Below are positions 15,602-19,414 of a stretch of 64,000 nucleotides of DNA, in pieces. Within the stretch, counting starts at the first letter, position 1, and every line of letters begins with the position of its first letter. The notes under the pieces were generated by a model. That model was not told where the DNA came from and did no database searches. It was given only the letters and a program-made list of their open reading frames with translations. The DNA comes from Aurantiochytrium sp. KH105 (lineage: Eukaryota; Sar; Bigyra; Thraustochytrida; Thraustochytriidae): the NCBI GenBank assembly GCA_003116975.1, contig BGKB01000056.1, forward strand, positions 310,001-374,000, in the 5' to 3' direction. The position numbers were made by a program, and so were the translations under genes.

Positions 15602-18600
15602 CTACGCATTTTTAATGCGCGTGATGAGCTCCTTGTAAAAGGCTTCTGCAAGGTACAGGCGACGCTGAAAAGGCATGGACTCCTTTTCTGAGAAGAGATG
15701 CTCGGCCGATGGTGGAGCAGCATCAATGTAAGCAGAGAAAGTGGCAAACCCCGTACGATTTGGATCACTCTCATGCACAAGCAAAATGGGTTTCTCCTCT
15801 TGCAGCGCTGTTCCCAGCTCCATTTTCACGGCGTCAGAGAACACCGTCTTGGAAAGGAAAAGCAAATAGCACTTGGACTCACGAATGCCACGTCTCATGG
15901 CATCCTCTGCGAGGTTACCCTCCGTCTCCTGGTCAATCCAGACACGAAGTCCACGATTCCGAAGCTTCTCCGCCATGAGGTTGCAGGCATCCCCTGCATC
16001 GACATGCCGATGGCTTATAAAGACGTGGTTATTGAGTCCAGCAGCGAGCGGAATGTTCTCCCTTTCCACGGGACTCGTATCCACCTCATCTTCCGTCAAT
16101 GAGCCGTCCTCAAAAAAGGGAGCAAACTCTGGAACTTTGGCATTTCTCGTTCCCACAGACATGACCAGGTGTTTCCCGGCCTCGCGCGCCTCGACCATGT
16201 CATCATATCTGACCAGCACAGAGTCGTCTGACGGGGACTGCAACAGGAGCTCCCATGGCAAGTCCCGAAACACGGCATCACGCGCCCCGCGAAAAATGCT
16301 CACCAGCGTCTTGAGTGTTGTTGCCGGTTGGTGCGCGTCTTGTGCCATGCGGACCCATATTTTGTCGCCTTCTTCCTCGAGCGCAAATACCGAGAGGTCG
16401 AAGCGAACAATTGCTCGATCTCCGGCAAGCTGAGGTGCGCGCTTGCCTTTGTTCACTTCTCCGCTGTACTGCGCACAAAGCGAGAGCATTCGCGCGAAGA
16501 CACCGTCCGGGAGAAAGAATTCGGAAAAGTCCAACACGCAGGTGAGGCCGCTGTCCATGTCGGTAATCTCTGCGTCAAGACGAGAGTCTATCGAGTTCTT
16601 GAGCAGACTGCTCACGAGGTAAAGTGTCTCGTTTTGACGGTTTCTCGGCAGCGACTTTTCGGAAAAGTTCCAGTCTGACATCAGCATATTGTCGTGCATG
16701 AACTCCCGAAGGTAGTCGACTTCTTCGTCATTCCACAGAAACCTCAGCAGACTGAGCGTGGCGATCCCGCGTTTGCGTAGTACGGCAAAGTCCTTTCTAA
16801 GCCCAGCGTTCTGAAGTTCTTGGCCGTACCGAACCTGGCTGACATGGATCTCATCCGCAATCACGCGCGAAAGCTTGTCCAGAAGCCACTGCGGGTTCAG
16901 GACGACCTTGTTGTGCAAGGTGTCTGTAGCGCGGAGATGGACGAGCATGCCGAGTTCATGGAAAAAGCTCAAGAGCTCATCGGTTTGATCACCGGCGTGG
17001 TACTTGGTCGCGAGTTCTTGCACTGTATCAAAAGACACATGATCGCGGCCGAGCTTCAGCAGGTCGTCCAACACCTTGAGCCACCTCAACGAGATCTTTC
17101 GCGAGATGGCCTCGAGCGACGACGCGCTCCCTTCGACAGCAGTTCTCAATTCTGAGGCATGACCTGGCTCACGGCTCATGTTGTCGATGGGAAAGAAACT
17201 GAGCCCTGCCGTCGAATTCAGAACGATGTTTTCATTCTCCTCAACAGACAAGTTGTCGACGAGAATCTTCTCCGCATCACGAGCGCTATCAGACGCCTGG
17301 TCATAGTGCGTGCCCACCAGAATGATGGGTGCAGTCGGCGCATGCAGCTTGACCGAGTTGAGCCAAAAGGAAAGGTACGCCACGGCTTGGTCTTGCTTGA
17401 TGAGGAGTTCCTGCATGTCGAAGACGACCATGAAGACGCCGCCCTCGCGCGTGAGAAAAATGTGGTGCAGCGCGTAAAAGACCTCCTGACCCGCATAGTC
17501 CCAGATCGTAAAGATGATCTTCTCGCCCGACTGCGTCTTGCCGGCCATGTCCTGGATCTCCGCATATTCGAACCGCTGCGCCATCTCGGCCTCGGGCACC
17601 AGCTCCACCTGCTCCTCTGCCGCGAAAGGCCGCGCGGCAGAAGAACGTCGGCGTCCAAAGACGGCATTCGAAAGGCCTTGGGAGACGCGCCGGGGCAGTA
17701 ATTGCCTTCTCTGGCTTCTGGGTTGCTCCGCTTGCACGGCCATGCGCAGCGCCGCCACGCGGCACACTTGGCGTTCGAACCCGCTGTCGAAGTCCTTGCT
17801 CTTTTCCCAGGACTCTGCATCGGTGCGCGTGAGCTCGACGCCCACCGTCGAGAGGTGCTCCGCCACGGGCGGCATGCTCAGCAGCGAGCGCACCGTGGAC
17901 GTCTTGCCGGCGGCGCCCTGGCCGATGACCATGAGCTTGCAGCGGCCCAGCTCCGCGGGGTCCCCGTTCGCCAGCGCCGCCTTGAGCGCCTCCTTCGCCG
18001 CCACAGTAGTTGTGGGAGCGCCGAGCACTTCCTTGATGGGCCGCACGGGCTCCGTGCCGTCCAGCACGCGCATCGAGGCGCCAGTCTCCGCGTCCCAGAT
18101 GCGCACGCTCTTGTCGAAAGATCCGCTCACGATCTCCGACCCCAAGAGAGAGACCGAGGTTACCGACAACGAGTGTCCTTGCAAGGCGTGCAGCTTCGCT
18201 CCGCTGCGCGCGTCCCAGAGTCTGACCGTCTTGTCGGCGGACCCGCTCACGATGCGGTCTCCCTCGATCGCGACAGAGTACACCAAGCGGGTGTGTCCTT
18301 CGAGGACGCGGACGAGCTCGAAGGAAGGCACGGCGTAGACCCTCACCTTGTTGTCATAGGACCCGCTGACCATGCGCTGCGCGTCGACCGCGACCGCTCC
18401 GACCGCGCCTGTCGCCTCCGTGAGGACGTGGCGTGGGCCGCCGCTGACCCGGTCGAAAATGCGCACGGTGTTGTCTTTCAACCCGGCCACGAGGAGGTTC
18501 TCGTGGGCGGCGACGCTGTAGACCTTCGCCCCGGCGTCGATCCTCAAGGTCTCTCGGCCGCTGATCTCGTCCCAGACGCGGACGGTCCGGTCGCCGGACC

Positions 18601-18907
18601 CGGAGATGATCTCGTTGCCGTCGAAGATGACGCTTAAGACAGCGATAGTGTGGCCCTGGAGGGCGTGCAGGACGGAGGCGGTGGCCAGATCAATCAGGAA
18701 GAGGCCGCCTGCGCCAGTCCCCACGGCGGCGAGGTTGCCCTGCACGGCCACAGTGTTGGCCCCATTGTTGTTGGGCGTCTTCATCTCCAAGACGAGGGCG
18801 CCGTCCTTCTTGCTCCATGCACGCAACGAGCAGTCGTCGACGCTGGCAGCCAGCACGAGGTCGGTGGACTGCGCGACGCCGTACACGTTGCCTCGGATGC
18901 GGACCAT
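15602..18907 (-). CDS. WD40 - Roc-COR GTPase - TIR domain protein
   Basis: 1101 residues from the ATG at 18907 (ACCGCCATGG, strong Kozak context). The frame is open 74 codons further up, but that part is Pro/Ala/Arg-rich 5' UTR-like sequence. Order: WD40 repeats forming a likely 7-blade propeller (residues about 1-295, repeated SGSxDKTVRLWDxxSG units). A Roc GTPase follows, with P-loop GQGAAGKT (329-336), a poorly conserved insert, G3 DYAGQE and G4 VGTHYD. A COR region comes next (about 570-900, LSLLRFLWNDEEVDYL, LPDGVFARML). The C-terminal TIR domain (about 961-1101) runs HVFISHRHVDAGDACNLMAE, GLRVWID, YLLFLSKTVFSDAVKMELGTAL. Glu1030 sits where SARM1-type TIRs have their catalytic NADase Glu. 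Likely a cytosolic GTP-switched signalling or cell-death protein. Function is inferred from domains only. Confidence 0.88.
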   Translation of the reverse strand: MVRIRGNVYGVAQSTDLVLAASVDDCSLRAWSKKDGALVLEMKTPNNNGANTVAVQGNLAAVGTGAGGLFLIDLATASVLHALQGHTIAVLSVIFDGNEIISGSGDRTVRVWDEISGRETLRIDAGAKVYSVAAHENLLVAGLKDNTVRIFDRVSGGPRHVLTEATGAVGAVAVDAQRMVSGSYDNKVRVYAVPSFELVRVLEGHTRLVYSVAIEGDRIVSGSADKTVRLWDARSGAKLHALQGHSLSVTSVSLLGSEIVSGSFDKSVRIWDAETGASMRVLDGTEPVRPIKEVLGAPTTTVAAKEALKAALANGDPAELGRCKLMVIGQGAAGKTSTVRSLLSMPPVAEHLSTVGVELTRTDAESWEKSKDFDSGFERQVCRVAALRMAVQAEQPRSQRRQLLPRRVSQGLSNAVFGRRRSSAARPFAAEEQVELVPEAEMAQRFEYAEIQDMAGKTQSGEKIIFTIWDYAGQEVFYALHHIFLTREGGVFMVVFDMQELLIKQDQAVAYLSFWLNSVKLHAPTAPIILVGTHYDQASDSARDAEKILVDNLSVEENENIVLNSTAGLSFFPIDNMSREPGHASELRTAVEGSASSLEAISRKISLRWLKVLDDLLKLGRDHVSFDTVQELATKYHAGDQTDELLSFFHELGMLVHLRATDTLHNKVVLNPQWLLDKLSRVIADEIHVSQVRYGQELQNAGLRKDFAVLRKRGIATLSLLRFLWNDEEVDYLREFMHDNMLMSDWNFSEKSLPRNRQNETLYLVSSLLKNSIDSRLDAEITDMDSGLTCVLDFSEFFLPDGVFARMLSLCAQYSGEVNKGKRAPQLAGDRAIVRFDLSVFALEEEGDKIWVRMAQDAHQPATTLKTLVSIFRGARDAVFRDLPWELLLQSPSDDSVLVRYDDMVEAREAGKHLVMSVGTRNAKVPEFAPFFEDGSLTEDEVDTSPVERENIPLAAGLNNHVFISHRHVDAGDACNLMAEKLRNRGLRVWIDQETEGNLAEDAMRRGIRESKCYLLFLSKTVFSDAVKMELGTALQEEKPILLVHESDPNRTGFATFSAYIDAAPPSAEHLFSEKESMPFQRRLYLAEAFYKELITRIKNA

Positions 18908-19414
18908 GGCGGTGGCGAGGGGAGCGCGGGCGGGCGGGCGCGCGGGCGGGCAAGCGCCGCAAAGAAGCGCCGCGAGCGAGCGGGTGCGGCGGAGAGGGAG
19001 CAAGAAAGCAGAGAGAGAGAAGAGACTCGGAGCGAGGGGAGGGGAAGATGGGAGAAATGGGAGAGCCTGCCTGCGCTGCTGATTCGATGCGGCCTTTGCG
19101 CGTTCTCCGCGCGGGCGCCGCCGCGACACGCTCCGAAAGAGGGTGGGGGTTGCTGGCTTGCGCCTTGCGCGCCTACCTGCCTGCCTGCCTGCCTGCCTGC
19201 CGCGCGGTCGCGCCGCGCGCGCGATGGCGTTGAGGGGGATTAGGTGTTTGGGCGAAGAGTTCTAGCGCGTGCACACGGCCGCACCGCGCGTGCCTGCACA
19301 CACACAATAGGCCAACATCACATCTGTCTGCCAGTGTCTGGCAAGTACAATTGTAAAAATTTTGGACCCTTTGTTTCCGAGTCTGCGGTGCAACAACTAC
19401 TTATACGAATCTAT
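18908..19414. promoter_or_regulatory. Promoter/5' UTR of the WD40-Roc-TIR gene
   Basis: GC-rich. Holds two adjacent CTTGCGC motifs at about 19156-19173 and a (CCTG)n run at 19176-19201, then a less GC-rich stretch towards the 3' end of the claudin-like gene. Confidence 0.45.

Follow-up and report, generated by a model that had tools for sequence, protein, structure and literature searches.

We show here that a gene of the thraustochytrid Aurantiochytrium sp. KH105 encodes a protein, P0001, in which a WD40 propeller, a Roc GTPase, a COR region and a TIR domain are joined in a single chain, and that this gene is one of at least 42 of its kind in the genome. It lies at positions 15602-18907, on the reverse strand, of a 64,000-nucleotide stretch of DNA (the window; GenBank assembly GCA_003116975.1, contig BGKB01000056.1, positions 310,001 to 374,000). 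With a probability of about 0.68, the gene is likely to belong to a large and polymorphic family of intracellular receptors for non-self recognition. In this model the N-terminal propeller would be the recognition domain, and some 28 hypervariable residues on its top face would confer a different ligand on each copy and each allele. The Roc-COR GTPase module, by switching or oligomerising, would pass the binding signal on to the C-terminal TIR domain, whose NAD-cleaving or signalling activity could lead to a defence or death response. A preliminary description of this DNA had proposed a sensor-switch-TIR protein. That arrangement is well supported by the hypervariable face and the polymorphism reported below, but the single-protein view understated the case, as the multigene family and its hypervariability are the main finding. 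In the following, L numbers denote gene copies or loci, and C numbers genome contigs.

The translated frame is free of stops over its 1101 amino acids, and all four Pfam domains of P0001 exceed their curated cut-offs. Roc (PF08477) is followed by COR (PF16095), the order that marks ROCO proteins, while no NACHT or NB-ARC STAND ATPase, in place of which Roc is present, occurred among the best 25 of the 47 Pfam families matching P0001 at E<=1. Searching the genome with P0001 identified 42 places, among them its own, where the match is near full length; these correspond to 43 matches, as one gene is split in two. Internal stops are absent from 40 of these copies; L029 contains one TGA and L037 one TAG. 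When L037 is left out, a methionine aligns with the start of P0001 in 38 of 41 copies, the remainder comprising L016 and L025, which have no methionine at this point, and L029, which is truncated. Because the genome holds 42 near full-length matches, 40 of them stop-free, and the start codon is shared, the four-domain chain described previously can be regarded as real and not as a chance fusion. The P-loop and DYAGQE motif, also reported as intact, are likewise maintained across the family (AAGKT in 40/41 copies, DYAGQ in 41/41), as is a G4 motif of the type T/S-H-Y/F-D (41/41). An insert at about residues 365-445 is more variable than the rest of Roc. The 5' flanks match in 493 of the 820 possible pairs. 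The AlphaFold model of the full chain is good for the WD40 domain (pLDDT mostly >=90, with 28 strands, seven times four) but poor for Roc, and therefore no claim is made on domain packing.

The paralogs display 69-90% amino-acid identity to P0001 and are dispersed over many contigs of the 76-Mb genome. A DNA search with the WD40 block, in which 40 of 98 candidates were scored, returned some matches outside the list of 42, and thus the figure is a lower bound. Genome-wide there are 124 COR-A matches, 116 of them over the curated cut-off, and at least 150 TIR_2 matches (150 scored of 258 candidates). For 91 of the 124 COR-A matches a TIR lies no more than 2.5 kb downstream on the same strand, and for 85 of the 124 the COR-A and TIR matches report an open frame of equal length; 46 of these 85 frames are of at least 1100 amino acids. 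It could be argued that the size of the family reflects haplotype duplicates. Matches to the PfaA family (TIGR02813) occur as near-equal pairs on five contig pairs (C72/C155, C27/C56, C124/C137, C290/C61 and C98/C89), the best PfaA-like polyunsaturated fatty acid synthase match scoring 930 bits, under the family cut-off of 1010. The assembly therefore seems to hold both haplotypes of a diploid, and the gene number per haplotype would thus be smaller than 42; haplotype duplication is part of the explanation of family size.

The copies differ most at a regular set of propeller residues. When the WD40 domains of 40 copies were aligned (L029 and L037 being dropped), the variable columns fell in the same register in each of the seven blades. 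Four positions per blade, the flanks of the conserved strand-a V (V-1, V+1) and of the b/c D (D-1, D+1), were defined as hot, giving 28 positions; this choice was not blind, as the register was set after the variable pattern had been noticed. Mean entropy is 2.72 bits at the hot positions and 0.41 over the remaining 262 columns of the WD40 domain; of the 28 columns that vary most, 23 belong to the hot set. Across register shifts of -20 to +19 the mean entropy peaks at 0, followed by 1.83 at -2 and 1.40 at -16, shifts that bring part of the set back onto its own positions. The register does not capture every site: residue 67, which it includes, is nearly invariant (0.29 bits), and residues 23, 48, 66, 207 and 247, which it excludes, are highly variable. 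The mean pairwise amino-acid difference is 0.80 at hot sites, compared with 0.136 in the WD40 scaffold, 0.204 in Roc, 0.305 in COR and 0.240 in the TIR. The 40 copies contain 38 distinct 28-residue combinations, and over their 780 pairs the hot difference is bimodal, with five pairs below 0.2, 775 above 0.6 and none between. L012 and L020 differ in 0.8% of scaffold DNA yet at 22 of the 28 hot residues. The hot sites fall at the d-a and b-c connections of the predicted strands, which form the top face of WD40 propellers. The model, together with the analogous location of variable sites at the top of the propeller in HET-E (PMC1805685), suggests that the hot residues sit on one propeller face.

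There is an excess of amino-acid change at the hot codons. For 14 independent pairs of closest copies, with an identity of 85% or more outside WD40, the proportions of differing nonsynonymous (pN) and synonymous (pS) sites are 0.439 and 0.192, respectively, at hot codons, 0.046 and 0.073 in the WD40 scaffold, 0.037 and 0.109 in Roc, 0.039 and 0.175 in COR, and 0.042 and 0.214 in the linker plus TIR. The hot-codon pN is 3.2 times the pS of all other codons (0.138). Multi-base changes account for 165 of the 247 changed hot codons as against 13-17% elsewhere, and the raised pS of the hot codons may be a counting effect of such changes or the result of a higher mutation rate.

The family also displays allelic and presence/absence polymorphism. 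The window locus is intact on C56, and its colinear partner, C97, is 95% identical on both flanks (about 5% DNA difference). Here the gene is reduced to a remnant (L054, G000:C97:12905-17179) in which residues 398-1101 are spread over three fragments that differ in frame, and nothing matches the half with the WD40 and P-loop. Gene L010 lies in a related block on C53, and in a third, on C179, the two flanks are separated by about 10 bases without a gene between them. L013 and L025 are alleles, since exactly two copies of the 1.48 kb downstream of L013, at 96%, exist in the genome, one on C124 and the other on C137; allelic status is established for this pair and for the window locus. The two alleles differ at 24 of 28 hot, 31 of 262 scaffold and 48 of 811 other residues. 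L017 and L021, to judge from their downstream sequence (97%), are probably alleles as well, and differ at 21 of 28 hot residues; two further contigs match part of this sequence at 95% and 90%. The faces of L044 and L045, which lie on C36 and C17, are identical.

It could be argued that these receptors serve allorecognition and not pathogen defence, detecting a polymorphic protein of conspecifics when cells or networks fuse, with incompatible fusions being killed or walled off. The largely dissimilar faces of alleles at one locus, and the presence/absence polymorphism, would be consistent with such a role, as would the fact that the varied WD40 sites are those of HET-D/E, which in Podospora detect HET-C in this manner. 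A set of more than 40 copies is large for allorecognition, however, the Podospora NWD family consisting of 10 members (PMC1805685), and pathogen sensors carry the same signatures. We regard allorecognition as being as plausible as defence, and this account in its entirety as a serious possibility that falls short of the favoured one.

In the favoured model of non-self-recognition receptors, whichever ligand is bound, the effector would be the TIR domain. Glu1030 is invariant (41/41 copies), is kept in four TIRs of other subfamilies in the same genome, and lies within a predicted helix (residues 1025-1036), in agreement with the alphaC position of the glutamate in TIR NADases. A profile of the P0001 TIR aligns it with a glutamate of Cat1 (WDELE), AbTIR (NYELD) and Caenorhabditis elegans TIR-1 (HKELK), which we take to be the catalytic residue of these enzymes; the correspondence with the NADase glutamate proposed in the preliminary description is thereby borne out. 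The profile matches Cat1, AbTIR, other bacterial TIRs and TIR-1 best, and the TIRs of TLRs at weaker E-values. The structural comparison that had been suggested at that stage gives a similar picture, in that the TIR model (pLDDT 72, pTM 0.74) finds its best Protein Data Bank fold matches, with Foldseek, in the TIRs of SARM1 and TIR-1, at modest TM-scores of about 0.5-0.6. PADLOC and NCBIfam returned weak TIR and small-GTPase matches only. The conserved glutamate and the fold and profile matches lend support to a putative NADase activity. Alternatively, the TIR may be a scaffold or adaptor of the TLR/MyD88 kind, devoid of such activity. This would fit the match of TLR TIRs to the same profile and the absence from P0001 of WCxxE, the context of the glutamate in TIR NADases; the previously noted resemblance to this context is not kept, as P0001 reads AVKMEL, and a cysteine occupies the position of Lys1028 in 10 of 41 copies. 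Both the invariance of Glu1030 and the preference of fold and profile for SARM1, TIR-1, Cat1, AbTIR and other bacterial TIRs argue against an adaptor, which we consider somewhat unlikely.

The manner in which the faces diversify can be approached through the DNA. Over all pairs, divergence at fourfold sites is 0.097 in WD40, 0.468 in COR and 0.486 in the linker plus TIR, the rise occurring between codons 360 and 440, while the G+C content of third codon positions (GC3) falls from 0.90 in the WD40 scaffold to 0.65 in COR-TIR, a contrast that would be expected of gene conversion. Linkage was measured in 35 copies, after dropping L029, L037 and one of each of five face-sharing pairs. Between hot codons it is 0.044 at a distance of 1-3 codons, 0.02 at 21-40 codons and 0.01 or less beyond, compared with 0.231 falling to 0.093 for polymorphic scaffold codons of the same stretch, and 0.281 falling to 0.13 for COR-TIR codons with identity below 0.3. 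The overall picture is that a hot codon changes nearly without regard to the other hot codons, and more rapidly than the DNA around it. In a shuffle test, whole blades were shared in 23 gene pairs against 6.9 expected, with blade 2 accounting for 18 of these pairs, and both members of a codon pair two apart were identical 221 times against 188 expected (sd 12). There has therefore been some copying between genes. Entropies at the first, second and third positions of hot codons are 1.50, 1.45 and 0.98 bits, respectively, and third positions are less variable than the amino acids predict at 9 of 27 hot sites. At site 208 the first position is T-rich and the second G/T-rich; third positions are C/G-variable at many sites. 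It was also observed that the third base of hot codons 49, 89, 168 and 210 is nearly fixed (T in 38/39 at site 89) despite wide amino-acid variation.

One possible source of this diversity, also proposed for Podospora, is that gene conversion shuffles whole blades or WD40 domains among paralogs, with selection merely sorting the products. The contrasts in fourfold-site divergence and GC3, the existence of WD40-only genes, and the shared blades and slightly raised joint identity in the shuffle test would all be in keeping with such a mechanism, and so would mosaics such as L011/L031, which have 27 of 28 hot residues in common although their COR DNA diverges by 0.23 per site. Whole-blade shuffling does not, however, readily explain the hot codons, because these are almost unlinked even six bases apart, a range at which scaffold polymorphisms are linked. 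In addition, for four of the seven blades no two of the 35 genes have the set of hot residues in common, and a genome-wide search with one blade of P0001 revealed no identical copy among 40 matches scored of 67 candidates, the best match reaching 90% along all 81 bases and 97% along 60. Support for blade shuffling as the main source of the present diversity is weak, and we judge it improbable. As a separate observation, L011/L031 and L018/L032 are pairs with nearly the same face and much difference elsewhere, which suggests transfer of whole WD40 domains. A further, equally doubtful proposal is that gene conversion keeps about 1.4 kb (leader, WD40 and P-loop) uniform and a distinct process rewrites single face codons, more at first and second positions than at third ones. 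If true, targeted codon rewriting would amount to an antibody-like, germline-coded repertoire on a WD40-Roc-COR-TIR frame, with a new specificity for each locus and allele. Codons that are saturated and nearly unlinked, set in a homogenised scaffold, make the origin of such diversity a pointed question. A diversity-generating retroelement was rejected because the variation is not adenine-centred; third positions vary too, and no search was made for a reverse transcriptase or template repeat. It is very improbable that this is an ordinary signalling family without a recognition role, its surface residues drifting under relaxed constraint. Propeller surface positions do tolerate change, but here mainly four positions per blade vary on a nearly fixed scaffold, a hot-codon pN (0.439) of 3.2 times the pS of other codons (0.138) is not predicted by relaxed constraint, and the bimodal pair pattern (5 of 780 below 0.2, 775 above 0.6) is unlike drift.

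It should be emphasized that several observations weigh against the non-self-recognition model. The full-length AlphaFold model has a pTM of 0.41, with Roc poorly modelled. When the pN of the hot codons is divided by their own raised pS (0.192) the ratio is just 2.29, and three of the 14 sister pairs show 0, 0 and 4 hot changes, so that not every locus differs. In a site-wise fixed effects likelihood (FEL) analysis, beta exceeds alpha at p<0.05 for only 7 of 28 hot sites and the relation is reversed at 4 of 28, while 7 of the 262 other WD40 sites are positive. We attribute this weak result to alpha being poorly identified at saturated codons, and prefer the pair counts. With regard to the TIR, a single-sequence search matched solved TIRs weakly (best E 0.009), and the missing WCxxE is a further difficulty. 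Finally, a search of bacteria for the architecture had been proposed in the preliminary description; when prokaryote genomes were scanned with two peptide patterns, none of the 15 matches to these could be confirmed, and the architecture may still occur elsewhere. As no prokaryote relative was confirmed, there is no outside comparison.

The features of the gene are collected below.

Features of the WD40-Roc-COR-TIR gene, in window coordinates
Feature	Position	Strand	Remarks
WD40-Roc-COR-TIR gene	15602..18907	-	one open reading frame, 1101 aa + stop, intronless
Seven-bladed WD40 propeller, residues 1-290	18038..18907	-	28 predicted strands; Pfam WD40 2.1e-31
Roc GTPase, residues 319-545 (approximate limits)	17273..17953	-	PF08477 3e-19; motifs conserved
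P-loop GQGAAGKT, residues 329-336	17900..17923	-	AAGKT in 40/41 copies
COR region, residues 546-930 (approximate limits)	16118..17272	-	COR-A PF16095 1.8e-12 over 608-738
TIR domain, residues 961-1101	15605..16027	-	TIR_2 PF13676 4e-14 (962-1062); Foldseek best match SARM1 TIR
Glu1030 codon, putative catalytic Glu	15818..15820	-	E in 41/41 copies
5' leader common to much of the family	18908..19270 (approximate)	-	median aligned length 362 bp
Hot residues 7, 9, 24, 26, 49, 51, 65, 67, 89, 91, 105, 107, 128, 130, 144, 146, 168, 170, 184, 186, 208, 210, 224, 226, 248, 250, 264, 266			register-defined

Elsewhere in the window, the G+C content of which is roughly 57%, Pfam matches were found in six of ten scanned open reading frames, none of these matches being out of the ordinary (thioesterase, Lon protease, ABC transporter, ankyrin ion channel, ADP-ribosylglycohydrolase and a weak TFIIA match); none of the ten contains a TIR or Roc match. 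The ADP-ribosylglycohydrolase gene (PF03747, 32757-33848) lies 14 kb from the TIR gene, a proximity that may reflect a link in NAD metabolism or chance.

The genome contains other proteins built from the same parts. L002 together with L051 (G000:C16), read whole, encodes a Roc-COR-TIR protein that lacks a WD40 domain and may represent a helper class, and COR-TIR open frames of 800-1099 amino acids number 35; a sensor-helper arrangement in this genome is speculation. In L001 and L005 a TIR is combined with repeats that, to judge by eye, are armadillo-like (as in SARM1) and ankyrin repeats. There are, in addition, WD40-only genes with a characteristic tail of their own, of which those on C259 and C157 were read to the stop. 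The tail DNA has 11 matches, on contigs C259, C235, C67, C157, C17, C26 and C124, including three in tandem, about 1.8 kb apart, at about 55-59 kb of C259. These genes are possible decoys or donor cassettes.

Hypervariable families of non-self-recognition receptors are known in plants, animals, fungi and bacteria; to our knowledge they have hardly been described in single-celled eukaryotes outside fungi. The open papers searched yielded no description of hypervariable WD40-Roc-COR-TIR genes, no paper on thraustochytrid TIR domains or on protist combinations of Roc, COR, TIR and WD40, and a single match, PMC7159879, for hypervariable WD40 together with ROC-COR. The family described here provides the ROCO proteins, to which LRRK2 belongs, with a natural case in which recognition domain and effector can both be read, and thus a test bed for signal transmission through Roc-COR.

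With TIR NADases (SARM1, TIR-1, AbTIR and Cat1) and plant TIR-NB-LRR proteins, P0001 shares the TIR fold, the aligned glutamate and the logic of sensor, switch and TIR. SARM1 uses SAM and ARM domains, and plant TIR-NB-LRR proteins NB-ARC and LRR; here, in contrast, a Roc GTPase stands in place of SAM/ARM or NB-ARC, WD40 replaces the LRR and the TIR is C-terminal. The transcriptomes of two thraustochytrid species comprise 290 and 306 WD40 proteins, where others have about 200 (PMC8917795), counts that are consistent with an expansion but are no evidence for the WD40-Roc-COR-TIR family as such. TIR, ROC and COR are likewise combined in one protein in the TIR-ROCO of Aplysia; the genes there are few, two described TLRs also have LRRs, and the excerpt reports no hypervariable WD40 (PMC9334734). 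The LRR-ROC-COR genes of brown algae, of which there are 9-47 as compared with four or fewer in unicellular SAR relatives, are proposed immune receptors and, as here, form an expanded, mostly dispersed family with a Roc-COR tandem and a diversified repeat domain (PMC11378527). They consist, however, of a simple LRR-ROC-COR chain with an LRR sensor, where the present proteins have a WD40 sensor and a TIR effector, and their diversity is ascribed to LRR exon shuffling and alternative splicing (PMC11378527), in contrast to point positions of a propeller encoded by an intronless frame. Diversity-generating retroelements acting on bacterial conflict sensors also randomise codons of a ligand-binding fold on a fixed scaffold (PMC10907252). 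In their targets, which have a C-type lectin fold, variation is centred on template adenines and falls mostly at first and second codon positions, whereas here a WD40 propeller is varied without an adenine focus and with variable third positions.

The closest likeness is to the NWD/HNWD genes of Podospora anserina (HET-D, HET-E and HET-R), also a multigene family with an NTPase switch (PMC1805685), in which hypervariable WD40 residues occupy corresponding positions, two pairs per blade. In HET-D/E the positively selected WD40 codons are 7, 9, 25 and 27, pairs that flank a conserved residue (PMC1805685). The domain order in Podospora is HET-NACHT-WD40, as opposed to WD40-Roc-COR-TIR, with a Roc GTPase here in place of NACHT and a TIR in place of HET, a fungal domain with remote similarity to TIR (PMC4986451). 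Furthermore, the Podospora repeats are up to identical and are exchanged, whereas the seven blades of P0001 visibly differ from each other, without near-identical repeats of the HNWD type, and the hot codons are nearly unlinked. The best reading, by analogy, is that the family is convergent with the fungal HET genes but based on Roc-COR and TIR. That the same sites of the same fold are varied as in HET-D/E, in combination with another switch and a TIR, suggests the repeated evolution of one solution to non-self recognition.

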